From assembly GCF_009745975.1 (NCBI RefSeq), contig NZ_WHOL01000122.1, positions 60,778 through 112,219 of the forward strand: a stretch of 51,442 bases of DNA, given 5' to 3'. Position 1 is the stretch's first letter. Every line of letters starts with the position of its first letter. This DNA is from Actinokineospora pegani (lineage in GTDB: Bacteria > Actinomycetota > Actinomycetes > Mycobacteriales > Pseudonocardiaceae). The position numbers and the translations under genes were made by a program. The notes below the pieces were generated by a model that worked only from the letters and a program-made list of their open reading frames with translations, had not been told where the DNA came from and made no database searches. Shown piece by piece: positions 6,019 to 27,305 of this stretch.

Positions 6019-8076
6019 ATGACCCTCGCGGCGATCCCCGGAGTGCTGCTCGCGCTGGTGGTGGTCCTGCTCCCCGGCGCCGCGCTGCTGCTGGCGCTGG
6101 GGGTGCGCAAACCGCTCTGGTTCATCGCCATCGGCCCCGCCGCCTCCATCGGGGTGGCATCGCTGACCGCCATCGCGTGCGGGCTGATCGGCGTCCGCTT
6201 CGGACCGCTGAGCCTGGGGATCGTCGTCTTCCTGCTGCTGGGGCTCGGGGTCTTCTGGTGGCTGCGCGACCGGCCCGCGCGCCCGTTCTGGCGGGTCCCC
6301 CGCTCGCAGGCCGTGGGGATCGCCGTCGGCGGGCTGCTCGCCATCGCCGCCGTCGGCTACGTCCTGCACACCTGGCTGCTGGGCCTCGGCGCGCTGAGCA
6401 CGCTCCCGCAGGAGCACGACACCATCCAGCACTCCGAGCTGATCGCCTACATCCAGCGGTCCGGGCGCGGTGCCCCGTGGGAGCTGCTGCCGGTCGACGT
6501 GCTCACCGGCGAGCCCACCTCGTACTACCCGTCCGGGCTGCACCTGCTGGGCGCGGTGATCGGCTCGATCGCGGGCAACCCGATCATCGGGCTCAACGCG
6601 GTCTCGGTCGCCGTGCTCGGCGTCGGGCTGGTCATGAGCCTGGGCGCGCTGGCCCACGTCGCCGCGCGCCAGGCCGGGCTGGGCCGCGGCGCGGCGGTGG
6701 CCGCGGGCGGGGTCGCCGCCGTCGTGGCCGCCGGGGTCAACCCGCTGGTCATCCCGCTCATGGAGCAGGGCGGCATCCTCGCCAACGCGGCCGCGATCGC
6801 GCTGACCCCCGGCGTGGTCGCCGCGCTGCTGACCCTGCGCGGGCGCGACTGGAAGGCGGCCGCGGCCGCCGGTGTCGCCAGCGGCGGCCTGGTCGCCGCG
6901 CACCCGACCGGCGCGGTCGGCGTCGCCGTCGTCCTCCTGGCCTGGTGGGTCGGCACCGCGTTCACCCGCGGCGGCCTGCGGGCCCTCGGCCGCCAGGTCT
7001 CCGCGCTGCTCGTCGCGGGCGTCGTCGCGGCCGTCGTGGCCGTGGCGTACCTGCTCGCGGCCGCGTCCGGCGGCGAGCTGACGGGCACGGTCACCGGCTG
7101 GCCGCCGGACTTCCCCAAGCTGGCGTGGTCGGAGGCGTTCGGGCGCACCTTCGGGCTGCCCTACCTCACCTTCCGCGCCGAGTACGAGGGGCTGGCCCAG
7201 ATCGCCGCGCTCCTGCTCGCCATGGCGGGCGTCCTGGCGGTGTTCTGGGTGCGCAAGGGCTTCGGCCCGGTCGCCGCCTACGCCGTGTGGTCGCTGATCG
7301 TCCTGGGCGCGTGGACCTCGCCCGCCGCCGGGTTCGAGTCCACCATCACCGGCTTCTTCTACAACGCCATGCTGCGGCTGCGGGCCAACCAGTCGCTGAT
7401 GATCCCGGTGCTCGCCGGGCTCGGCGTCGTGCTCGTCGCCAGGGGCGCCGCCGCGTGGCTCGCCCGGCGCCGCCCGCTGCGCGACAAGCCGCGCGCCCAG
7501 CGCCCGCTCCTGCTCAACTCGGTGACCGCTGGCGTGGTCGCGCTGATCATGCTGGGGTACCTGGTCGGGCCCGCGCAGGGCTACGGCCGGGCCAACGCCG
7601 ACTCGCTGACGATCAGGTACGCCCAGCCGAACCTGTTCCGCATCACCGAGGAGGACCAGGCCGCCTTCGACTTCCTCGACGGCAAGGTCGGCCCGGGGGA
7701 GCGGGTGATGAACTCGGCCAACGACGGGTCGTCGTTCATGTACGTCGAGAAGGGCATCCCGGTGGTCAACATGAGCACCGTCGGCGTCGCGGGCGCGCCG
7801 TGGACCTACGGCCTGCTGGACCGGTTCAACACCTACCCGACCGACCCCCAGGTCCGGAAGTGGATCATGGACCTGAACATCACCTGGGTCTACGTCGACT
7901 ACAGCGCGCCCAGGATCGGCTCCGTCGTCACCCCGGAGAGCTGGGCGGACAAGGGCGGCTTGACCGTCCCGCCCGGCCTCGAGGACCTGGACGGCCTGCC
8001 CGGCCTCACCGAGGAGTTCCAGCGCGGGCCGGTGCACGTCTACCGGGTGGACCAGGAGCTGATCCGGGGCATGTGA
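6019..8076 (+). CDS. Large polytopic membrane protein, DUF6541-like
   Basis: A 685-residue protein that is almost entirely hydrophobic helices up to about residue 530, ending in a ~150-residue soluble tail. It looks like the DUF6541 family, whose members in Corynebacteriales and Pseudonocardiales stand beside cell-wall glycan genes; M. tuberculosis Rv3779, of similar size and neighbourhood, is the closest analogue I can name. A loop after the fourth helix carries the acidic-histidine segment LPQEHDTIQHSELIAYIQ, a possible catalytic loop like those of GT-C type enzymes. I infer a polyprenyl-phosphate-sugar dependent glycosyltransferase or a sugar-lipid synthase. No activity is proven by the sequence. 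Confidence 0.6.
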   Translation: MTLAAIPGVLLALVVVLLPGAALLLALGVRKPLWFIAIGPAASIGVASLTAIACGLIGVRFGPLSLGIVVFLLLGLGVFWWLRDRPARPFWRVPRSQAVGIAVGGLLAIAAVGYVLHTWLLGLGALSTLPQEHDTIQHSELIAYIQRSGRGAPWELLPVDVLTGEPTSYYPSGLHLLGAVIGSIAGNPIIGLNAVSVAVLGVGLVMSLGALAHVAARQAGLGRGAAVAAGGVAAVVAAGVNPLVIPLMEQGGILANAAAIALTPGVVAALLTLRGRDWKAAAAAGVASGGLVAAHPTGAVGVAVVLLAWWVGTAFTRGGLRALGRQVSALLVAGVVAAVVAVAYLLAAASGGELTGTVTGWPPDFPKLAWSEAFGRTFGLPYLTFRAEYEGLAQIAALLLAMAGVLAVFWVRKGFGPVAAYAVWSLIVLGAWTSPAAGFESTITGFFYNAMLRLRANQSLMIPVLAGLGVVLVARGAAAWLARRRPLRDKPRAQRPLLLNSVTAGVVALIMLGYLVGPAQGYGRANADSLTIRYAQPNLFRITEEDQAAFDFLDGKVGPGERVMNSANDGSSFMYVEKGIPVVNMSTVGVAGAPWTYGLLDRFNTYPTDPQVRKWIMDLNITWVYVDYSAPRIGSVVTPESWADKGGLTVPPGLEDLDGLPGLTEEFQRGPVHVYRVDQELIRGM

Positions 8077-8171
8077 ACGGCGTTTGCCCAGATCCAGCCA
8101 CACGAGGTGGACATGAGCTGCCGGCGTAAGCTGCGCAGAGCCACCAGCGAGCGTCTCGGAGACCCCCACAC

Positions 8172-10070
8172 ATGCCTTCCACCCCCCGACCCGACGCAGG
8201 AGCACGACCCGCGGGCACGGTGCTGCAACGCGTGATCATGCCGCGGGACGCGGACCCGATCGACGTGCGCGCGCTGTACCTGGACGAGCCGGAGAAGGTC
8301 CACAGCGAGGTGACCTCCCGGTTCGAGGTGACCGTGCCGACCTCGGCCGCGGTGTCGTTCGCGACCTACTTCAACGCCTTCCCGGCCAGCTACTGGAAGC
8401 GCTGGACCAAGGTGCGCGACGTCGTGCTGCGGCTGCGGGTGCGCGGCAACGGGCGCATCGACGTCTACCGCTCGAAGGCCAACGGCGACCAGGTCCACTG
8501 GCACGGCGAGGTGGTGCAGACCGAGGGCGAGTGGCGCACCTTCGAGTTCGACGTCAGCACCGCGCCGTTCGAGGACGGCGGCTGGATCTGGTTCGACGTG
8601 ACCACCCACTCCTCGGTGCTCGACATCGCCGACGCGGCCTGGGTGACGCCGCTGGACCTGCCCGCGGCGAAGCTCGCGATCGGCTCGACCACCTTCAACC
8701 GGGTCGACGACTGCGTGGCCTCGCTGCTGGCGCTGGGCGAGGACCCGGCGGTGCTCGAGGTGGTCAGCAAGGTCTACGTCGCCGACCAGGGCACGAAGAA
8801 GATCTCCGGGCACCCGCGCTTCGCCGAGGCGGCCAAGCTGCTCGGCGACCGGCTCGAGGTCATCGAGCAGGACAACATGGGCGGCTCCGGCGGGTTCAGC
8901 CGGGCGATGTACGAGACGATGGAGCACTCCGACGTCGACCAGCTCATGCTCATGGACGACGACATCATGCTCGAGCCGGACAGCATCCTGCGGGCCAGCG
9001 CGTTCAGCCGCGCCGCCGTGCAGCCGCTGATCCTGGGCTCGCAGATGCTCAACCTCCAGGCCAGGGCCCGGCTGCACAGCATGGGCGAGGTCGTCGACAT
9101 GGGCTCCTACGTGTGGCGCCCCGCCCCCGGCGCGGTCACCGACCACGACTTCAGCAAGAAGACGCTGCGCAAGACGGTCAAGCTGCACCGCAGGATCGAC
9201 TCCACCTACAACGGCTGGTGGATGTGCCTGTTCCCGCGCGAGGTCATCGAGAAGACCGGGCTGCCGCTGCCGCTGTTCATCAAGTGGGACGACACCGAGT
9301 ACTCGATCCGCGCGCTGGCCAACGGCATCCCCACGGTCACCCTGCCCGGCTCCGGCGTGTGGCACATGCCGTGGACGGACAAGAACGACCACTCCGACTG
9401 GACGGCCTACTTCCACCTGCGCAACCGGCTCGTGGTCGCGGCGCTGCACAGCCCGCACGACATGCGCAAGACGCTGTTCAAGCAGGGCCTGCGCGCCACC
9501 ATCCGCAGGCTGCTGTCGATGGAGTACTCCACGGTCGCCATCGAGCTCAAGGCCATCGAGGACTTCCTCGCGGGCCCCGACCGGCTGGCCGACTCGCTGC
9601 GCACCGCCCTGCCCGAGGTGCAGAAGATCCGCTCCGGCTACGCCGACGCCCAGATCCTGCAGTCGGCGAGCGAGTTCCCGCCGCCCACCCTGGACACCGT
9701 CCGCGCCGAGGGCATGCTCAAGCCGCCGGTGAACCCGGTCTCCATCGCCGCCCAGGCGTCCAAGGCGCTGCTGCACAACCTGCGCGCCCCGGACCCCACG
9801 GCCGTGGACCGCCCGCAGGTGAACGTGCCCGCGGGCAGCGCGCTGTGGTTCCTGCTGGGCAACCTGGACAGCGCCACGGTGTCGAACTCCGACGGCAACG
9901 GCGTGGCCTTCCGCAGGCGCGACGCGCACGTGTTCCGCGAGCTGTCGAAGCAGGCCGCGGCCAGCTACCGCCAGCTCATCGCCGAGTGGCCGCGGATGCA
10001 GAAGGTGTACCGCGACGCGCTGCCGGAGCTGTCCTCCGCGGAGTCGTGGCGCAAGATCTTCGAGGCCTGA
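8172..10070 (+). CDS. glfT2: Galactofuranosyltransferase GlfT2
   Basis: The 632-residue protein matches GlfT2 in length (637 in M. tuberculosis) and architecture: an N-terminal jelly-roll domain (residues ~1-165), a GT-A domain and a long helical C-terminal domain. GlfT2 uses UDP-galactofuranose to polymerise the galactan with alternating beta-1,5 and beta-1,6 links on the cytoplasmic face. Visible active-site features are D262-D263-D264 in LMLMDDDIMLEPD (metal and nucleotide sugar), W372-D373-D374-T-E376 in KWDDTEYSI and H398 in VWHMPW. The partner enzymes GlfT1 and Glf are encoded elsewhere in the window. In M. tuberculosis glfT2 lies next to glf; here they are 6 kb apart and on opposite strands. 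Confidence 0.95.
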   Translation: MPSTPRPDAGARPAGTVLQRVIMPRDADPIDVRALYLDEPEKVHSEVTSRFEVTVPTSAAVSFATYFNAFPASYWKRWTKVRDVVLRLRVRGNGRIDVYRSKANGDQVHWHGEVVQTEGEWRTFEFDVSTAPFEDGGWIWFDVTTHSSVLDIADAAWVTPLDLPAAKLAIGSTTFNRVDDCVASLLALGEDPAVLEVVSKVYVADQGTKKISGHPRFAEAAKLLGDRLEVIEQDNMGGSGGFSRAMYETMEHSDVDQLMLMDDDIMLEPDSILRASAFSRAAVQPLILGSQMLNLQARARLHSMGEVVDMGSYVWRPAPGAVTDHDFSKKTLRKTVKLHRRIDSTYNGWWMCLFPREVIEKTGLPLPLFIKWDDTEYSIRALANGIPTVTLPGSGVWHMPWTDKNDHSDWTAYFHLRNRLVVAALHSPHDMRKTLFKQGLRATIRRLLSMEYSTVAIELKAIEDFLAGPDRLADSLRTALPEVQKIRSGYADAQILQSASEFPPPTLDTVRAEGMLKPPVNPVSIAAQASKALLHNLRAPDPTAVDRPQVNVPAGSALWFLLGNLDSATVSNSDGNGVAFRRRDAHVFRELSKQAAASYRQLIAEWPRMQKVYRDALPELSSAESWRKIFEA

Positions 10071-16320: not shown

Positions 16321-17556
<1,236 letters not shown>

Positions 17557-17600: not shown

Positions 17601-18581
17601 TCATCCTTGCGCTGAGCGACCCTGCTGCGACCAGTCCGTCACCGTCGGGCCACCCCGCTCCTGCTCACCGCGCCCAGCCGGGCCCGCGGCGCGTCCGCCC
17701 AGGCCCGGCAGCAGGTCGGCGGCGACGTGCTCCAGCGTGGTCTCCCGCCCGGCGTACGGGGTGTCCGGTCGCGGCCAGTGCACGACCAGGTCGGTGAACC
17801 CGGCCGCCGCGGCGCGCCCGGCGTGCTCCTCGAACGCCCCGACGCTGCTCAGCGAGAACACCGGGGAGGCGTCGACGGAGATGTAGCGGTCCACCGTCGC
17901 GCGGTCGCGGCCGTGCTGGTCGAGCACGTCGTCGAACCGCTCGGCCAGCTCGGTGACGCCCCGCCACCACTGCTCGAGGTCCTCCGCGTCCGGCTTGCCG
18001 GTGGTCACCCAGCCCTGGCCGTGCCTGGCCGCGGTGCCCATCGCCTTCGGGCCGTTCGCGGCGACGAGGAAGGGCACCCTCGGGCGCTGCACGCAGCCGG
18101 GCGCACTGCGCGCCTCAGCGGCCTCGAACCAGCGGCCCGAGTGGGTGGTGCGGGGCTGGCGCAGCAGCTTGTCGGTCAGCGCGACGAACTCCTCGAACCG
18201 CTCCGCGACCTGGCCCGGGGTGATGTCGGCGCCGCCGAAGACCTTGCCGTCGTAGTTGGCCGGACCACTGGACCCGGAGCCGACGCCGAGCAGGAACCGG
18301 CCGTCGGAGATGTCGTCGAGGGCCAGCACCGAGCGGGCCAGCGGCACCGGGTGCCGGAAGTTGGGGGTGGTGACGAACGTGCCGAGGCGGATCGAGGAGG
18401 TCACCATCGCCGCGGCGGTCAGCGTGGGAACCGAGTCGAACCACGGGCCGTCGACCAACGTCCGCCAACCGAGGTGGTCGTAGGTCCAGGCGTGGTCGAA
18501 GCCGTACTCGTCCGCGGCGCGCCACCGCGGTTCGGCGGCCCACCACCGGTGCTCGGGGAGGATCACGATGCCAACTCGCAC
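17601..18581 (-). CDS. LLM-class flavin-dependent oxidoreductase
   Basis: A 326-residue luciferase-like protein of the F420/FMN-dependent TIM-barrel family. It starts MRVGIVILPEHRWW and shows the family segments FDHAWTYDHLGWR, IRLGTFVTTPNFRHPVPLARSVLALDDIS (written here in part) and GRFLLGVGSGSSG. Such enzymes use F420 or FMN to oxidise or reduce small molecules; actinobacteria carry many paralogues and the substrate is not predictable. The last ~30 residues are a low-complexity polar tail. It is divergent from the HAD hydrolase gene with an inverted repeat between them. Confidence 0.8.
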   Translation of the reverse strand: MRVGIVILPEHRWWAAEPRWRAADEYGFDHAWTYDHLGWRTLVDGPWFDSVPTLTAAAMVTSSIRLGTFVTTPNFRHPVPLARSVLALDDISDGRFLLGVGSGSSGPANYDGKVFGGADITPGQVAERFEEFVALTDKLLRQPRTTHSGRWFEAAEARSAPGCVQRPRVPFLVAANGPKAMGTAARHGQGWVTTGKPDAEDLEQWWRGVTELAERFDDVLDQHGRDRATVDRYISVDASPVFSLSSVGAFEEHAGRAAAAGFTDLVVHWPRPDTPYAGRETTLEHVAADLLPGLGGRAAGPAGRGEQERGGPTVTDWSQQGRSAQG

Positions 18582-18604: not shown

Positions 18605-18670
18605 AGACCTTTCCGCGCAGGGTAACCAAGCCCACCCCGGACCGGCCCGCCGGTGTTGCAGGATGGCGGG

Positions 18671-19468
18671 GTGGACACCCCCCGCCTGGTCGCCTCCGAC
18701 ATCGACGGCACCCTGCTCGACCCGATGGACCGCGTCACCCCCCGCACCCTGGCCGTGCTGGCCAGACTGCAGGCAGCCGGCGCCGTCTTCGCCCTGGTCA
18801 GCGGCCGCCCCCCACGCTGGATCCCGCCCGTCGCCCAGGCCGCCGACCTCACCGGCCTAGCCGTCTGCGCCAACGGCGCGATCATCTACGACATCGCCGC
18901 CGAGAAGATCGTCTCCCACCGCAGCCTCGACCCCCTCCTCCTGGGCGACACCGTCCACGCCCTGGAGAAGGTCCTCCCCGGCATCCACGTGGCCACCGAA
19001 CGCGCCACCATCGAAGACCACCCCTTCGCCACCGAACCCGACTTCCGCAACCCCTGGGGCGACGAACCGAGCAACGTCCAACCCCGCGCGGAGGTCCTGG
19101 GCCACCCGGCCACCAAGCTCCTGGTCCGCCACCAGGGCATGACCAGCGCCGAGATGGCCCTGGCCGCCACCGAACTCCTGGGCACCGCCATCGACGTCAC
19201 CTACTCCACCAACCGGGGCCTCATCGAGATCTCCGCCCCCGGCGTCACCAAGGCCTCCGGCCTCAACGAGGTGGCCACCCTCAGCGGAGTGCCCACCACC
19301 GCCACCATCGCCTTCGGCGACATGCCCAACGACATCGAGATGCTGCGGTGGGCCACGCACGGGGTGGCGATGTCGAACGCGCAGGCGGAGGTGAAGGAGG
19401 TGGCCGATGAGGTCACGGCGTCTAACGCGGAGGATGGGGTGGCGGTGGTGTTGGAGCGGTGGTTCTGA
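18671..19468 (+). CDS. HAD-superfamily hydrolase, Cof type
   Basis: A 265-residue Cof-like (HAD-IIB) phosphatase. Motif I is ASDIDGTLLD (catalytic DxDGT), motif II is FALVSGRPP, and motif IV is AFGDMPNDIEML near the C-terminus; the cap domain lies between. These enzymes dephosphorylate sugar phosphates, flavin or nucleotide phosphates in the cytoplasm. GTG 18671 gives MDTPRLVASDIDGT; a start 18 bp earlier (GTG 18653) is possible. The CRISPR leader begins directly after its stop codon. The last 100 bp switch from C-ending to G-ending codons, a local strand-composition change. Confidence 0.85.
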   Translation: MDTPRLVASDIDGTLLDPMDRVTPRTLAVLARLQAAGAVFALVSGRPPRWIPPVAQAADLTGLAVCANGAIIYDIAAEKIVSHRSLDPLLLGDTVHALEKVLPGIHVATERATIEDHPFATEPDFRNPWGDEPSNVQPRAEVLGHPATKLLVRHQGMTSAEMALAATELLGTAIDVTYSTNRGLIEISAPGVTKASGLNEVATLSGVPTTATIAFGDMPNDIEMLRWATHGVAMSNAQAEVKEVADEVTASNAEDGVAVVLERWF

Positions 19469-21158: not shown

Positions 21159-22058
21159 TCAATGCCGAAAAAACTTCTCCTGCCGCCCCTTGGACACCAA
21201 CCGCAACCACTGCAAAAACGCCTTCGGATCCCGCTTAGTCCCCAAAAAGTACAACCCGAACCGAAAAACCTCCAACAACCCCAATTTACGCATCCCCGGC
21301 TGCGCCAGCAGATACCCCCGGTTCCGGTACGTGTAATACCGCTTGATCTCGTTCTCCGGGTCCTGCGCGTGCAGCCGCCCCCCCAACATCGGCTTGAACT
21401 CGTCCGACCCATCCGGGTGCAGGTACGCAACCGACAGGCACGTGCCGAAGGGCAGCCCGGAACGCACCAGCCGCCGGTGGATCTCGACCTCGTCGCCGCG
21501 GAAGAACAGGCGGTAGTCGGGGACGCCGATGACGTCGAGGGTGGAGGCGCGGAAGAGGGCGCCGTTGAAGAGAGAGGCGATGCCGGGCAGGAAGTCGGTG
21601 CCCAGGGCGGAGGTGTCGCGCTTCCAGGTCAGGCCGCGGCGGAGGGGGAAGGCCAGTTTGTCCGGGGAGTCGATGTTGGTGACGACCGGGGAGACCTCGG
21701 CGAGGCCGCGCTTCTCGGCCACGTCGAGCAGGACGGCGAGGACGTTCTCGTCGGCGGGGCGGCCGTCGTCGTCGGCCAGCCAGAGCCAGGTGGCGCCCAT
21801 GGACAGGGCGTGCAGCATGCCCAGGGCGAAGCCGCCCGCGCCGCCGAGGTTGCGGTGTGACGACAGGTAGGTCGTCGGCAGCGGGCAGGCGGCCACGAGG
21901 TCGTCGACCGGCTGGTCGGGGCCGTTGTCGACCACGATGAGGTGGTCCGGGGGCCTGGTCTGGGCCGCGAGCACCTTGAGGGACTCCTCGAGCAGTGCTC
22001 GGCGGTGCCGGGTGACGACGACCGCGACGACGGAGTCGGCGGGCAGGGGGGTGGTCAT
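21159..22058 (-). CDS. glfT1: Galactofuranosyltransferase GlfT1
   Basis: The 299-residue GT2 enzyme matches GlfT1, which adds the first galactofuranose residues to decaprenyl-PP-GlcNAc-rhamnose before GlfT2 extends the chain. Motifs: VVAVVVTRHRRALLEESL, HLIVVDNGPDQP, NLGGAGGFALGM, LWLADDDGRP (metal-binding DDD), then FFRGDEVEIHRRL containing the likely catalytic acid. ATG 22058 overlaps the wzt stop by 4 bp, so it is coupled to the exporter genes. The last ~45 codons (21159-21300) are clearly poorer in GC than the rest, and the gene ends 35 bp from the decayed CRISPR repeat. Confidence 0.92.
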   Translation of the reverse strand: MTTPLPADSVVAVVVTRHRRALLEESLKVLAAQTRPPDHLIVVDNGPDQPVDDLVAACPLPTTYLSSHRNLGGAGGFALGMLHALSMGATWLWLADDDGRPADENVLAVLLDVAEKRGLAEVSPVVTNIDSPDKLAFPLRRGLTWKRDTSALGTDFLPGIASLFNGALFRASTLDVIGVPDYRLFFRGDEVEIHRRLVRSGLPFGTCLSVAYLHPDGSDEFKPMLGGRLHAQDPENEIKRYYTYRNRGYLLAQPGMRKLGLLEVFRFGLYFLGTKRDPKAFLQWLRLVSKGRQEKFFRH

Positions 22059-22863: not shown

Positions 22864-23781
22864 TCAGACCCAGTAGGAGATACGGGAACGGTAGTTGCGC
22901 ATCGCGACCAAAGCCAGGGACCAGCCGATGACGGTCACGACCCCGCAGAACACCCAGTGGTGCCAGCTCTGGACGTTGCCCAGCAGCGGCGCGCGCAGGA
23001 TCTGGATGAAGTGGTAGGCCGGGTTCGCCTCGGCGACGTACTTGACCCAGCCGCCGTCCTCGCCGAACCGCTTGGCGAGGATGTCGGTGGACCAGACGAT
23101 CGGGGTGACGAAGAAGACCAGGTTGGTCAGCGCGGCGACGACCTGCGGGATGTCGCGGTACCGGGTGCTGATGATGCCGAACAGCAGCGCCGCCCAGGCC
23201 CCGTTGATGGCGATCAGCGCGATCGCCGGGATGGCCCAGAGCACCGACCAGTCCAGGCCGGGCTGCGCGGTGCCGCCCGCGGTGATCGTGTAGCCCTCCG
23301 TGCTCAGCGGCCCGAAGAAGATCGCCAGCACGATGAAGTAGACGACCAGGTTGTGCAGGAACATCAGCGTCAGGCGCCAGACCGTGCGCAGCGCGTACAC
23401 CGTCAGCGGCGCGGGGAGCTGCTTGATCAGGCCCTCGTTGTGGATGAACGAGTCCGAGCCCTCGGTCAGGCAGCCCAGGATGAACTGCCAGATGATGAAC
23501 CCGACCGTCAGGTAGGGCAGGAACGTGGCGATCTCGCCCTCGAAGAGCTGCGAGTACAGCAGGCCCAGGCCGGTCGCGGTGATGCCCATGCTGAGCGTGA
23601 TCCACAGCGGGCCGATGACCGAGCGCCGGTAGCGCTGCTTGATGTCCTGCCAGCCGAGGTGGGCCCAGAGCTCACGAGCCGCCAGGCCCGCGCGGATGTC
23701 CTGGAAGGCCCGTCCCCAGGTGCGGCCCGCGTGCACCACGGGCTGTTCTGGGGCGGAATCGATCGCACCGATTGCTGACAC
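22864..23781 (-). CDS. wzm: Galactan ABC exporter permease (Wzm-like)
   Basis: About 305 residues with six membrane helices and the ABC-2 polysaccharide-export pattern: an amphipathic N-terminal segment ARELWAHLGWQDIKQRYRRS, then WITLSMGITATGLGLLYSQLF. It corresponds to M. tuberculosis Rv3783 (RfbD). The GTG at 23781 gives MSAIGAIDSAPEQP and is preferred; a longer reading from 23874 would overlap the divergent CMP-sialate synthetase gene. With Wzt it forms the exporter that moves decaprenyl-PP-linked galactan to the outer leaflet, where arabinan is added. Confidence 0.9.
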   Translation of the reverse strand: MSAIGAIDSAPEQPVVHAGRTWGRAFQDIRAGLAARELWAHLGWQDIKQRYRRSVIGPLWITLSMGITATGLGLLYSQLFEGEIATFLPYLTVGFIIWQFILGCLTEGSDSFIHNEGLIKQLPAPLTVYALRTVWRLTLMFLHNLVVYFIVLAIFFGPLSTEGYTITAGGTAQPGLDWSVLWAIPAIALIAINGAWAALLFGIISTRYRDIPQVVAALTNLVFFVTPIVWSTDILAKRFGEDGGWVKYVAEANPAYHFIQILRAPLLGNVQSWHHWVFCGVVTVIGWSLALVAMRNYRSRISYWV

Positions 23782-23861: not shown

Positions 23862-25061
23862 GTGACTGATTCACCGCCTTCGCCCGCCCCCGGTCGGGTG
23901 AACCGGGTGGTCGCCGTGGTGCCCGCCCGCGGTGGCTCCAAGGGCGTCCCCGGCAAGAACCTGGCCAGGGTGGGTGGCGTGCCGCTGGTCACCAGGGCAG
24001 TGGCCGCCGTGCTCGGCTCCGGCGCGGTCGACGAGGTCGTGGTCAGCACCGACGACGCCGCGATCGCCGCCGAGGCCGCCGCGGCCGGGGCGACCGCCGT
24101 CGAGCGGCCCGCCGAGCTGTCCGGGGACACGGCCTCGTCCGAGTCGGCCGTGCTGCACGCCCTCGACGTCCTCGCCGAGCGCGACGGGGCCGACCCGGCG
24201 GTGGTGCTGCTGGTCCAGTGCACCTCGCCGTTCATCGCCCCCGGGACCGTCGCCGAGGTGGTCGGTCGGGTGCGCGACGGCGGCGCGGACAGCGCGTTCA
24301 CCGCCGTCCGGGTGCACGAGTTCCTCTGGCTGGTCCGCGCCGACGGCACGGCCGAGGGGGTCAACCACGACAAGTCCACCCGGCCGCGCAGGCAGGACCG
24401 GGAGCCGGAGTTCCGCGAGACCGGCGCGGTCTACGCGATGCGCGTCGACGGTTTCCGCGAGCGCCGCCACCGCTTCTTCGGTCGGGTCGAACTGGTCGAG
24501 GTGCCCGCCGCCGACGCGCTGGAGATCGACACCGCCGACGAGCTCGACCTGGCCAGGCGGCTGGCCGGGGGGCGCGTCACGGCGGCGGAGCTGCCGGTCG
24601 ACGCCCTGGTCACCGACTTCGACGGCGTGCACACCGACGACCGGGCGCTGGTCCTGCAGGACGGCACCGAGGCGGTCATGGTCAGCCGGTCCGACGGCGC
24701 CGGGGTGGCGCTGCTGCGCGCGACGGGCATCCCGCTGATGATCCTGTCCGTCGAGCTCAACCCGGTCGTCGCCGCCCGCGCCCGCAAGCTCGGTGTCGAG
24801 GTCGCGCACGGGGTGGCCGACAAGGCGGCCCGGCTGCGGCAGTGGCTGCGGGACAACGACCTGGACCCCGCGCGGGTCGCCTACGTCGGCAACGACCTGC
24901 GCGACATCCCGTGCATGGAGATCGTCGGCTGGCCCGTGGCGGTGGCCGACGCCCGACCCGAGGTCCTCGCGGTGGCTAGGGTCGTGTTGCACAACAGCGG
25001 CGGCGCCGGAGCCGTCCGGGAGGTCGCTGACCTGATCCTCGCCGCGCGGAACTCGAGCTAG
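23862..25061 (+). CDS. CMP-nonulosonate (sialic acid) cytidylyltransferase fused to a HAD phosphatase
   Basis: A 399-residue two-domain protein. Residues ~13-235 are a NeuA-type cytidylyltransferase: VVAVVPARGGSKGVPGKNLA (CTP loop), VVVSTDDAAIA, LVQCTSPF, FRETGAVYAMR and ALEIDTADELDLA. Residues ~247-399 are a KdsC-like HAD phosphatase with DFDGVHTDD, a motif II serine (MILSVE), a motif III lysine (VADKAAR) and GNDLRDIPCME, all catalytic residues retained. It would activate a nonulosonic acid with CTP and may remove the 9-phosphate from its precursor; animal CMP-sialate synthetases have a similar HAD tail. GTG 23862 starts MTDSPPSPAPGRVNR. It diverges from wzm across 80 bp and precedes the neuB-like gene by 10 bp. 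Confidence 0.88.
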   Translation: MTDSPPSPAPGRVNRVVAVVPARGGSKGVPGKNLARVGGVPLVTRAVAAVLGSGAVDEVVVSTDDAAIAAEAAAAGATAVERPAELSGDTASSESAVLHALDVLAERDGADPAVVLLVQCTSPFIAPGTVAEVVGRVRDGGADSAFTAVRVHEFLWLVRADGTAEGVNHDKSTRPRRQDREPEFRETGAVYAMRVDGFRERRHRFFGRVELVEVPAADALEIDTADELDLARRLAGGRVTAAELPVDALVTDFDGVHTDDRALVLQDGTEAVMVSRSDGAGVALLRATGIPLMILSVELNPVVAARARKLGVEVAHGVADKAARLRQWLRDNDLDPARVAYVGNDLRDIPCMEIVGWPVAVADARPEVLAVARVVLHNSGGAGAVREVADLILAARNSS

Positions 25062-25071
25062 GAGCCTGTCG

Positions 25072-25953
25072 ATGAGCACCCCAGCACCGACCACCGCCAT
25101 TGGCGGCCGCCTGGTCGGCGCAGGCCACCCCGCCTACGTCATCGCCGAGGCGGGCATCAACCACAACGGGGACGTGGAGCTGGCCAAGCGCCTGGTCGAC
25201 GTCGCCGCCGACGCGGGCGCGGACGCGGTGAAGTTCCAGAAGCGCACCCCGGAGATCGCCACCCCGCCGAGCATGCGTGACACTCGGCGCGAGACGCCGT
25301 GGGGCGAGATGAGCTACCTCGACTACCGGTACCGGGTGGAGTTCGGCGAGGAGCAGTACGCCGACATCGCCCGGCACTGCGACAAGCGCGGCATCGCCTG
25401 GTTCGCCTCGCCGTGGGACGTGCCCAGCGTGGAGTTCCTCGAGCGCTTCAACGTGCCCACGCACAAGGTCGCCTCGGCGTCGCTGACCGACATCCCGCTG
25501 CTGGAGGCGCTGCGCGACACCGGCAAGCCGATCATCTGCTCCACCGGCATGTCGACGATGGAGGAGGTCGACGCGGCGGTGGCCGTGCTGGGCACCGAGC
25601 GCCTGGTGCTGCTGCACGCCACCTCGACCTACCCGTGCCCGCCGGAGGAGTCGAACCTGCGCACGATCGGCACGCTGCGCGAGCGCTTCCCGGACGTGCC
25701 GGTCGGCTACTCCGGGCACGAGCGCGGCCTGCAGGTGTCGGTGGCCGCCGTGGCGCTGGGCGCCTGCGTGGTCGAGCGGCACGTCACCCTGGACCGGGCG
25801 ATGTGGGGCTCGGACCACGCGGCGTCGCTGGAGCCCGACGGCCTGCGCAAGCTCGTGCGCGACATCCGCGTCGTGGAGACCGCGCTCGGCGACGGCGTCA
25901 AGCGGGTCTTCCCCGGCGAGGAGAAGCCCCGCGCCCGCCTGCGCCTGCACTAG
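25072..25953 (+). CDS. NeuB-type nonulosonic acid synthase lacking the SAF domain
   Basis: The 293-residue protein is the NeuB TIM barrel that condenses phosphoenolpyruvate with a mannose-type sugar to make sialic acid, Kdn or a related acid. Signatures: YVIAEAGINHNGDVELAKRL, DAVKFQKRTPE, WFASPWDVPSVEFLE, KVASASLTDIPLL, ICSTGMSTMEE, LLHATSTYPCPPEESNL, GYSGHERGLQVS and ERHVTLDRAMWGSDHAAS. The family usually has about 340-360 residues with a C-terminal SAF (antifreeze-like) domain reaching into the partner active site; here the frame ends at the barrel (EKPRARLRLH) with a clean stop. It is 10 bp behind the cytidylyltransferase-phosphatase gene. A NeuC epimerase is not seen in the window. Confidence 0.88.
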   Translation: MSTPAPTTAIGGRLVGAGHPAYVIAEAGINHNGDVELAKRLVDVAADAGADAVKFQKRTPEIATPPSMRDTRRETPWGEMSYLDYRYRVEFGEEQYADIARHCDKRGIAWFASPWDVPSVEFLERFNVPTHKVASASLTDIPLLEALRDTGKPIICSTGMSTMEEVDAAVAVLGTERLVLLHATSTYPCPPEESNLRTIGTLRERFPDVPVGYSGHERGLQVSVAAVALGACVVERHVTLDRAMWGSDHAASLEPDGLRKLVRDIRVVETALGDGVKRVFPGEEKPRARLRLH

Positions 25954-25958
25954 GCCGG

Positions 25959-26093
25959 GTTTCGGAAGCCTGGACGTGCCGGACTTCCGAAACGTGACCT
26001 GGACCGACCGAAAGACCCCCGTTCGGGTTAAGGGCCCACGAACGGGGGCGGGTTGTAGTGTTCATCACCCCGGCCACGCGCGGCCGGGGTGAT
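25959..26093. repeat. Three consecutive perfect inverted repeats
   Basis: Between neuB and the GT29-like gene there are three hairpins in a row. GTTTCGGAAG (25959-25968) pairs with CTTCCGAAAC (25984-25993). CCCCCGTTCG (26016-26025) pairs with CGAACGGGGG (26039-26048). ATCACCCCGGCC (26064-26075) pairs with GGCCGGGGTGAT (26082-26093). None is followed by a T-run. They may act as a terminator cluster for the cytidylyltransferase-neuB pair or as regulatory structures in the leader of the next gene. Confidence 0.6.
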
Positions 26094-26130
26094 GCTGCCC
26101 CATCTAGTCCCCGCGAGGCACCTGAACCCG

Positions 26131-26808
26131 ATGATCTCCGTTGACTCGGGCCCGCGCCCGAACACCGGGCTGCGCTCCGACCTGGCCGCCCTGCTGACGG
26201 CCTACGCCCGGCACGACCCACCCCGCTCGATCGCGATCGTGGGCAACGCGCCGGTCGCGCCCGACCCGGCCCGCGCCGCCGCCATCGACGACTCCGACCT
26301 GGTCATCCGGATGACCAGCTTCGCCGTCGACGAGCCGGGCGCGACCCCCGCCCTGGGCGCGCGCACCGACGTGGTGGTCTTCCACCGCGGCGTCGTGGCC
26401 AGCCCCAACCTGTTCGCCGACTACACCGCCCGCCTCTACCTGCTCGTCGAGCCGGGGCGGCTGCACTGGGAGCCGGAGCGGCTGCCGGACTGGTGGCCCG
26501 CGGACCTGGGCTTCCAGAACGTGCCGAACCGGGAGTTCACCGTCCCGCTCAACGCCCTGCTCGGGTTCGACCCGGAGGTCGCGGAGTGGTCGACCACGGG
26601 CACCCTCACCGCGTACGTGATGACCGAGCTGTTCCCGGCCGCGAAGGTCCGGATGACCGGCATGTCCATCATCGAACGCCCAGATCAGACCACCTTCGCC
26701 CACGCCTGGGGCGAGTCGGTCCAGGTCACCGCCGAACACCGCCTGCACGCCGAATCCGCGCTCCTGCGCACCTGGATGGACACCGGAAGGATCGAGGTAC
26801 TCCCATGA
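26131..26808 (+). CDS. GT29-like sialyltransferase homologue
   Basis: The 225-residue protein shows the pattern of family GT29. A sialylmotif-L-like block begins IAIVGNAPVA (V37-G38-N39) and continues AAIDDSDLVIRM (residues 50-61) and LGARTDVVVFHRG. A sialylmotif-S-like block is WSTTGTLTAYVMTELFP (153-169) followed by VRMTGMSI. A VS-like H-x4-E is H203-E208. GT29 enzymes transfer sialic acid from CMP-sialate; together with the CMP-acid synthetase and synthase upstream this is a coherent set. ATG 26131 is preferred because upstream in-frame starts at 26089/26092 fall inside a hairpin. No signal peptide or membrane helix is seen. It overlaps the next gene by 4 bp. Activity is inferred. Confidence 0.7.
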   Translation: MISVDSGPRPNTGLRSDLAALLTAYARHDPPRSIAIVGNAPVAPDPARAAAIDDSDLVIRMTSFAVDEPGATPALGARTDVVVFHRGVVASPNLFADYTARLYLLVEPGRLHWEPERLPDWWPADLGFQNVPNREFTVPLNALLGFDPEVAEWSTTGTLTAYVMTELFPAAKVRMTGMSIIERPDQTTFAHAWGESVQVTAEHRLHAESALLRTWMDTGRIEVLP

Positions 26809-27305
26809 CCGGCCTCCCCGAGCGCCTGCGCACCACCGCCCGCCAGGCGGGCCGCCCGCTCTGGATGAAGTTCCGCGGCCGCGTCGAGGCCCTGATCTCC
26901 GAACGCATCACCGAGGCCTCCCACGACTGGCGCGGCCGCGACGACGCCCTGCGCGAGCGCATCGACGAGCAGCAGGAGCAGATCCGCATCCTCAGCACCG
27001 ACCTCGCCACCGCCGTGGCCGACGCCGACCGCAGGCTGCACGAGGTCGCCGCGAGCGTGGACTGGCTCGACCACGAGCACCGCCGCATGAGCCCCCAGAT
27101 CGCCGCAGCCGAGGCCAGGCTGGCCGAGCTGGAACGCCGCGCCGCCCGCCCCGACCTCGCCGCCGCCGAACAGGCCGACCCGGCCCTGGCCGCACTGGTC
27201 GAGGAACTGCGCGCCGAGCACGCCAAGATCCGCGCCCGCCTGGGCACGGTCAGCCGCTACGAGGAGCGCTTGGCCCGCCTCGAGGAGAAGACCCCCTCGG
27301 TCTGA
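26805..27305 (+). CDS. Coiled-coil protein of unknown function
   Basis: I do not recognise a family with certainty. The 166-residue protein starts with a basic amphipathic segment (LRTTARQAGRPLWMKFRGRVEALI) and then is mostly heptad-like helix rich in Glu, Arg, Ala and Asp, including ERIDEQQEQIRILSTDLATAV and AEARLAELERRAA. It has no membrane helix. The ATG at 26805 overlaps the stop of the GT29-like gene (ATGA), so the two are coupled and the protein may scaffold or anchor that enzyme. This is inference from position. Confidence 0.65.
   Translation: MTGLPERLRTTARQAGRPLWMKFRGRVEALISERITEASHDWRGRDDALRERIDEQQEQIRILSTDLATAVADADRRLHEVAASVDWLDHEHRRMSPQIAAAEARLAELERRAARPDLAAAEQADPALAALVEELRAEHAKIRARLGTVSRYEERLARLEEKTPSV

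Follow-up and report, generated by a model that had tools for sequence, protein, structure and literature searches.

Acid pathways exchanged beside a conserved transferase and coiled-coil pair: a putative Kdn locus next to the galactan exporter of Actinokineospora pegani

The soil bacterium Actinokineospora pegani carries four plus-strand genes, A to D, at positions 23862-27305 of the window (the whole stretch of 51,442 nucleotides that was analyzed; Table 1). Across related loci, the transferase C and the coiled-coil protein D stayed constant while the acid-making genes near them were swapped. The data suggest, with a probability of roughly 0.58, that Kdn is made by A and B and is put on lipid-linked galactan by C before export through Wzm/Wzt, with D acting as a partner.

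Table 1. Features of the locus and their positions in the window
Feature	Position	Strand	Basis and remarks
GlfT2, galactofuran polymerase	8172..10070	+	PF19320 256.8 + PF17994 186.2 bits
Glf, UDP-galactopyranose mutase	16321..17550	-	PF03275 276.1 bits
GlfT1-like GT2	21159..22052	-	Glycos_transf_2; start approximate
Wzt, exporter ATPase, 270 aa	22055..22867	-	ABC_tran, AAA_21; start approximate
Wzm, galactan ABC exporter membrane subunit	22864..23778	-	PF01061 62.5 bits; start approximate
Gene A, CMP-nonulosonate synthetase fused to KdsC/Kdn-9-P-phosphatase-like HAD domain	23862..25061	+	Pfam, NCBIfam and PDB sequence matches; HAD motifs
Gene B, NeuB-family synthase, 293 aa, without C-terminal SAF domain	25072..25953	+	PF03102
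B-C gap, three stem-loops	25954..26130		Inverted repeats; fold
Gene C, predicted GT29-like CMP-nonulosonate transferase, soluble	26131..26808	+	Predicted fold; alternative GTG start 26089
Gene D, coiled-coil protein, candidate partner or ruler	26805..27305	+	D profile; structure model; overlaps C stop by 4 nt

Eighty loci were found via transferase C, with the A. pegani locus (L001) left out of the counts, and were typed by marker genes as K (A. pegani-type), N (Neu5Ac-type, with NeuC) or P (pseudaminic-type). Exactly one acid pathway was detected near C in 72 of the 80 loci (43 P, 15 N, and 14 K, two of the last, L019 and L072, being divergent) and none in 8; the synthase agreed with the reference of its own type in all 72 typed loci. 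Wzm and GlfT1 were both present in 62/80 loci. No galactan gene above 100 bits was found in 16/80, nine of which were shorter than 20 kb and seven full length (L017, L020, L029, L040, L064, L080, and L081). In Thermomonospora echinospora (L028), glf, a glfT2-like gene, two ABC exporter genes, C, and D formed one run on a single strand. In the tree of C, one set joined 14 rows of type K with 14 of type N (SH-aLRT 99), the P side held 43 P rows together with three of type N and one of type K, and L073, a P row, lay beside the K/N set; C clade and acid type thus appear to agree largely, not fully. The change count on this tree was 8 with five rows of unknown type left out, and three of its labels (L005 and L016 as N by NeuA alone, L063 as P by synthase alone) were 'none' under the locus rule.

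Co-occurrence was counted in 150 genomes of the family, which are not phylogenetically independent. NeuB was present in all 35 genomes with C and in 6 of the 115 without it, and lay within 10 kb of C in 32/35. GlfT1 lay within 6 kb of C on the opposite strand in 33/35, C and GlfT1 being on different contigs in 2/35, and relatives of GlfT1 (E<=1e-60) were found in 147/150 genomes. Chance adjacency of C and the galactan exporter was rejected on the swap and these counts. In a phylum sample of 396, C was found in the A. pegani genome alone.

An earlier note on this DNA had claimed four consecutive plus-strand genes diverging from wzm/wzt/glfT1; A, B, C, and D were all present on re-analysis, with Wzm, Wzt, and the GlfT1-like gene divergent upstream of A. 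A search of relatives, which the note had named as a check, found the gene order conserved, so the lack of conservation given there as grounds for refutation was not what was seen. Additions to that note are the exchange of one acid pathway for another, the conservation of the coiled-coil family, and the capping analogy described below. The coding status of A, B, and C was supported by high GC3; the GC3-based caller chose an antisense ORF over D, but the D profile described below, built without the A. pegani protein, recognizes the latter. The segment 25950-26130 between B and C folded with a z of -4.62, none of 200 shuffles being equally stable, and the first palindrome had no second copy within the window.

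The proposed fusion of a CMP-acid synthetase to a HAD phosphatase in A was borne out by a synthetase domain at about residues 14-235 (CTP_transf_3, 78.7 bits; NeuA enzymes of the PDB among the sequence matches) and a C-terminal KdsC/HAD-type domain at about residues 246-397, with the motifs DFDGV, DK, and GNDxxD intact. These motifs were intact in all 15 K-type A proteins (A. pegani included), two of the 15 being divergent. The NCBIfam models for KdsC (100.4, cut-off 208) and Kdn-9-phosphatase (82.8, cut-off 180) matched A below their cut-offs, and the 9-phosphatase substrate is a prediction. Neither A nor B reached an NCBIfam equivalog cut-off (e.g., PseF 112.1 vs 205.7; NeuB_NnaB 287.7 vs 399.65). 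B, described earlier as a NeuB-type synthase, scored 289.7 bits with PF03102 (cut-off 22.1), confirming that description, and was the sole NeuB match in the genome (E<=0.001). The SAF domain was absent from B and from four K-type representatives, and present in two N-type and one P-type synthases. Synthase lengths were 284-303 residues in 14 of 15 K-type proteins, 339-356 in N-type, and 346-358 in P-type; the one K-type synthase of 340 residues probably has a miscalled start. Five loci were fetched from other families, four belonging to one Streptomyces-like genus, and each had the A and B pair as well.

The gene caller started C at a GTG at 26089; the first residue of P0005, the closest homologue, corresponds to the codon at 26131, and this start was therefore preferred. 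With the Pfam GT29 profile, C scored 12.1 bits, below the cut-off of 23, and a phmmer search of the PDB returned no sialyltransferase, 8 of its 12 matches being designed repeat proteins. The predicted fold of C matched GT29-family sialyltransferases, upholding the earlier GT29-like assignment; on the strength of this model, the view that C is an unrelated ORF, suggested by the weak Pfam score and the PDB sequence search, was rejected. H217 and E222 were invariant in 81 sequences and, going by their pattern, may correspond to sialyltransferase motif VS, with its catalytic His. The coupled coiled-coil protein of the earlier note is likewise upheld, the model of D being a long helix (residues 4-114) and a return helix (126-162) with a pLDDT of 92.6. 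Matches of D in Pfam and NCBIfam were nonspecific. A D profile was trained on 48 D-like proteins (40 from P-type and 8 from untyped loci; A. pegani left out). It found 29/29 D proteins of K/N type, A. pegani included, at 59-130 bits (A. pegani D, 98.1 bits), against no more than 15.1 for 174 reversed or heptad-shuffled controls, and a generic coiled coil was rejected on this separation. D was extracted from all but 4 of 81 loci (L022, L030, L048, and L053).

The acid of A. pegani is most likely Kdn, judging from gene content: phosphatase motifs are intact, the synthase has no SAF domain, no NeuC, NanE, or AGE exceeded its cut-off in the genome, and the same pair occurs in Streptomyces-like genomes. 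In the genome (99.36% complete), the best NeuC score was 57.3 (cut-off 235.9), NanE reached 18.6 (cut-off 27), and AGE gave no match; the genome appears to be without a supply of free ManNAc or ManNAc-6-P. The earlier note saw no NeuC epimerase beside these genes, none over the cut-off was found in the whole genome, and the Kdn route, then offered as a possibility, gains support from these points and from the transferase clade common to Neu5Ac-type loci. Since K and N rows share one C set, the K acid is plausibly of Neu5Ac configuration, as Kdn is. The same clade could also be read as a sign of Neu5Ac or a legionaminic-type acid made via a 9-phosphate, an improbable reading for which further points can be made. 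A NeuC-family protein over the cut-off was found elsewhere in 6/7 K-type Amycolatopsis genomes, and two of these six genes, when examined, lay beside LegB/LegC-like genes with no NeuB match in 19 kb, so a ManNAc-type or legionaminic-type substrate may be used in those genomes. Measured Km values of human NANS for both Man-6-P and ManNAc-6-P are tabulated in PMC6200933. Against it, none of five K-type Actinokineospora genomes tested had NeuC over the cut-off, A. pegani has neither NeuC nor NanE over the cut-off and no AGE match, and B lacks the SAF domain, whose Arg314 in N. meningitidis NeuB interacts with ManNAc and is thought, in the passage concerned, to position its N-acetyl group (PMC6795526).

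On the favored reading, B would condense mannose-6-phosphate and PEP to Kdn-9-phosphate, the HAD domain of A would release Kdn, and its synthetase domain would form CMP-Kdn. GlfT1 and GlfT2 would build lipid-linked galactan in the cytosol; soluble C would transfer Kdn from CMP-Kdn onto it, probably at or near the outer end, D serving as a dedicated partner of C, and Wzm/Wzt would export the galactan after Kdn addition. The galactan link, earlier offered as a possibility from position, is supported by C staying beside the exporter while the acid pathway changes and by the T. echinospora gene run. It is rather unlikely that A and B instead supply Kdn to a separate wall polymer or other acceptor (teichulosonic acid, lipid, or protein), with the exporter a mere neighbor. 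A Streptomyces-like locus (L104) has the A and B pair with a DUF6716 glycosyltransferase, a GT2, and a polysialyltransferase-like gene, S. coelicolor walls hold a Kdn-galactose teichulosonic acid according to part of one report (PMC7831098), and C occurs without galactan genes in the seven full-length loci. Counting against the galactan reading, part of PMC6801904 describes the Kdn polymer and the galactan of Promicromonospora citrea as separate wall polymers. Set against a separate acceptor are the position of C and the T. echinospora run, and the genes scanned nearby: none from D to 32698 (M28 peptidase, ADH, aminotransferase, and BPA) was a polymer transferase, and GlfT1 was the only polymerizing transferase among upstream genes scanned. 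These BPA, aminotransferase, ADH, and M28 genes are often kept nearby in relatives too, as expected of an inherited neighborhood without functional link; such an origin of the gene order is very improbable, given that C and NeuB were gained or lost together (35/35 vs 6/115) while GlfT1 stayed (147/150), and that three different acid pathways occupy the same place.

A more specific form of galactan decoration is possible, if doubtful: a modular end cap, in which C would place one nonulosonic acid on a chain once it is finished, rod-like D would measure chain length, and the capping pair would be kept across species that swap Kdn, Neu5Ac, and pseudaminic acid. The long helix of D has 111 residues; at a rise of 1.5 A for each, it would span about 17 nm. 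If the cap is real, GlfT2 would no longer be the sole control of galactan length, and arabinogalactan would have a separately built counterpart of the Klebsiella O-antigen terminators. More broadly, many Pseudonocardiaceae would, on the favored reading, bear negatively charged sugars of sialic type on their wall galactan; that reading also offers a testable handle on galactan chain ending and a natural set of species differing in acid, and suggests a likely job for 3mmz, a solved phosphatase structure so far unassigned. No paper on a nonulosonic acid on actinobacterial galactan was found among the best 5 to 20 matches listed per search, judged by titles and abstract starts, with subscription journals mostly outside the search.

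The predicted fold of C would extend GT29-like transferases to actinobacteria, and C differs from GT29 sialyltransferases in scoring below the Pfam cut-off and in being soluble and bacterial. Bacterial GT29 enzymes were reported from proteobacteria in PMC5811610, where 'actinobacteri' occurs 0 times in the main text. The locus resembles the Streptomyces teichulosonic acid (Kdn) locus in its A and B pair, present in 4/4 loci of one Streptomyces-like genus, with SCO genes likened by description: the region SCO4873-SCO4882 of S. coelicolor is named as teichulosonic acid genes in a passage of PMC13011467, PMC8269224 tabulates a sialic acid synthase of Planobispora against SCO4880, and SCO4880 was entered as a putative transferase elsewhere (PMC2267785). 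It differs in that the L104 pair sits with DUF6716, GT2, and polyST-like transferases, whereas polymerizing transferases, expected in such loci, were represented among the scanned neighbors at A. pegani by GlfT1 only. The Kdn pathway of Bacteroides thetaiotaomicron and Prymnesium parvum runs likewise from Man-6-P through Kdn-9-P and Kdn to CMP-Kdn, as outlined in part of PMC6200933, whereas in A. pegani phosphatase and synthetase are one protein. The Klebsiella O4/O12 chain terminators (CMP-Kdo-dependent GT137, WbbB, with a coiled-coil ruler) differ in that the A. pegani transferase is GT29-like, its coiled coil is a separate protein, termination is a conjecture, and Wzt has no reported carbohydrate-binding domain (at E<=0.001, Pfam found ABC_tran and AAA_21 only). 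With an ABC-exported glycan, a CMP-ulosonate donor, and a coiled coil joined with a terminal transferase, as set out in parts of PMC11231755 and PMC10629545, they resemble this locus as read here, where D may pair with C in a similar way.

The four-gene set described in the earlier note was confirmed: gene A encodes a CMP-acid synthetase fused to a HAD phosphatase, B a NeuB-family synthase, C a GT29-like transferase and D a coiled-coil protein. GlfT2, a DprE1-like oxidase (read from FAD_binding_4 and ALO matches), a UbiA-type protein, Glf, a GlfT1-like GT2 (read from GT2 matches), Wzt and Wzm are also encoded in the window, which places A–D within an arabinogalactan region, divergent from the galactan exporter. 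A review assigns arabinogalactan to Corynebacteriales and some Pseudonocardiales/Actinopolysporales species (PMC6194230). The B–C gap yielded three stem-loops on folding (z −4.62) and may allow separate transcription of C–D from A–B. Positions are listed in the table.

Positions of features in the window and in related loci
Feature	Sequence	Position	Strand
Genes A–D	window	23862-27305	plus
Luciferase-like monooxygenase, between Glf and GlfT1	window	17601-18581	
Hydrolase_3-type HAD, between Glf and GlfT1	window	18653-19468	
B–C gap with stem-loops	window	25954-26130	
1019-aa BNR-repeat protein (BNR_2 35 bits), between Wzt and C	L028, Thermomonospora echinospora	6835-9894	
A protein, HAD part compared with PDB 3mmz	L104	9084-10451	

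Sixteen C proteins were aligned and the alignment was used to search genome contigs; the best 80 of 94 loci were kept. Loci were typed as pseudaminic (PseB at least 300 bits), Neu5Ac-type (NeuC at least 300) or Kdn-like (HAD at least 60 plus NeuB without NeuC). Among these best 80, 43 were pseudaminic, 15 Neu5Ac-type, 14 Kdn-like and eight none of these; no locus held two types by this rule, and the best reference for the synthase agreed with the call in 72/72 typed loci. The window was typed Kdn-like by the same rule. Spot checks gave PseB scores of 474.6 (L060) and 483.1 bits (L041; cut-off 407.75), a PseC score in L060 of 385.3 bits, under its cut-off of 423.5, and a NeuC score in L012 of 358.8 bits versus 235.9. 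All three types occurred within the genus Actinokineospora, one genome of which (G045) lacked C.

Galactan genes above 100 bits were present in 64 of the best 80 loci, with Wzm and GlfT1 together in 62; of the 16 others, nine were records under 20 kb and seven were full length. C and Wzm lay on opposite strands in 60 of 63 measured loci, the window included, and on the same strand in three. In L028, glf, a glfT2-like gene, two ABC genes, the BNR protein gene, C and D formed a single-strand run. A GlfT2-like gene (33-37% identity) lay between Wzm and the acid genes in L011, L015, L018, L021 and L027 (~6.0-6.1 kb) and in L072 (~2.0 kb). Four loci from Sciscionella and Geodermatophilus (L070, L071, L076, L077) had C and a D-like ORF with no typed acid pathway in their 20 kb of sequence; both Geodermatophilus loci showed a NeuA-like match at the edge.

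Across 150 family genomes, C was found in 35, NeuB in 41 and GlfT1 (E≤1e-60) in 147. NeuB was present in 35/35 genomes with C versus 6/115 without it (Fisher p 2e-28, no true probability since the genomes are related), and lay within 10 kb of C in 32/35. GlfT1 was on the opposite strand within 6 kb of C in 33/35, the other two having them on separate contigs. In the six C-less NeuB genomes NeuB was never near GlfT1 (52-73 kb apart in three, separate contigs in three). C was detected in 23/298 genomes of the order and in 1/396 of the phylum, the window's own genome; a B-like synthase (E≤1e-70) was detected in 56/296 of the class. The link to galactan, formerly drawn from position, is now supported by conserved association and by the exchange of acid pathways.

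The HAD domain of the window was matched (E≤1e-5) in 14 of the best 80 of 94 loci, precisely the Kdn-like ones, and its motifs were intact in 15/15 including the window; L019 and L072 have them in the form DVDGV/GDD. Each of five loci retrieved from other families also carried the A+B pair, and four of these loci belong to a single genus. The HAD part of the A protein of L104, from that genus, matched PDB 3mmz with 304 bits, which suggests that this solved but unassigned HAD structure is likely a nonulosonate-9-phosphatase; we take 3mmz to be an S. avermitilis protein and hence called the genus 'Streptomyces-like'. The SAF domain was missing from B and from 4/4 other Kdn-like synthases scanned, and present in two Neu5Ac-type and one pseudaminic synthase. 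Lengths were consistent with this pattern: 284-303 in 14/15 Kdn-like synthases (the one of 340 probably has a miscalled start), 339-356 in Neu5Ac-type and 346-358 in pseudaminic ones. According to PMC6795526, Arg314 in the SAF domain of the N. meningitidis enzyme contacts ManNAc and is thought to position its N-acetyl group.

In the window's own genome, profile scores stayed below cut-off for NeuC (57.3 versus 235.9; the weak match is a WecB, 363 bits) and NanE (18.6 versus 27), and AGE had no match. NeuC exceeded the cut-off in 6/6 Neu5Ac-type control genomes. Among 12 Kdn-like genomes it did so in 0/5 Actinokineospora and 6/7 Amycolatopsis; the Amycolatopsis result counts against Kdn. Two of these six (L088, L089) carried NeuC in a separate cluster with LegB/LegC-like neighbours scoring below the LegB/LegC cut-offs, and no NeuB match was found within 19 kb in either. 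The Kdn proposal is supported by the SAF-less B, the intact HAD motifs and the lack of NeuC, NanE or AGE matches above cut-off in the window's own genome. Kdn is present in the S. coelicolor wall (PMC7831098).

A tree of 81 C sequences, built by a quick method, contained one set of 29 (support 99) with 14 Kdn-like, 14 Neu5Ac-type and one of unknown type; the opposite side held 43 pseudaminic, three Neu5Ac-type, one Kdn-like and four unknown. L073, a pseudaminic locus, sits beside the 29-member set. Eight changes of type are needed for the three labels, and 11 for all four versus a shuffled mean of 33.7. Kdn and Neu5Ac share a D-glycero-D-galacto frame that pseudaminic acid lacks. Acid geometry and transferase clade therefore largely agree. 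Residues N53, D67, R74, G171, H205, H217 and E222 were invariant across the 81 sequences.

No convincing membrane segment was found in A, B, C or D (one window at 1.64 in A, versus 33 windows in Wzm). Since CMP-sugars are cytosolic, C would require an acceptor in the cytosol, which could be the lipid-linked galactan from GlfT1/GlfT2, the substrate of the neighbouring exporter. A D-like ORF followed C in 77/81 cases by an automatic extractor biased toward coiled-coil composition. When 48 D-like ORFs from pseudaminic and untyped loci were built into a profile, it recovered 29/29 Kdn-like and Neu5Ac-type D proteins, the window's included, at 59-130 bits; none of 174 controls scored above 15.1. 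The predicted D model comprises a 111-residue helix and a return helix (pLDDT 92.6, pTM 0.52).

Taken at the level of sequence, the data support the interpretation that A–D direct a putative Kdn-type decoration of galactan. Among working systems, the nearest parallel is the terminator of Klebsiella O4, described in PMC11231755 as a CMP-Kdo-dependent transferase with a coiled-coil ruler acting on an ABC-exported glycan. The Klebsiella O4 Wzt has a carbohydrate-binding domain, whereas none was reported for the window Wzt, and the A–D system is therefore not classed with O4-type terminators.
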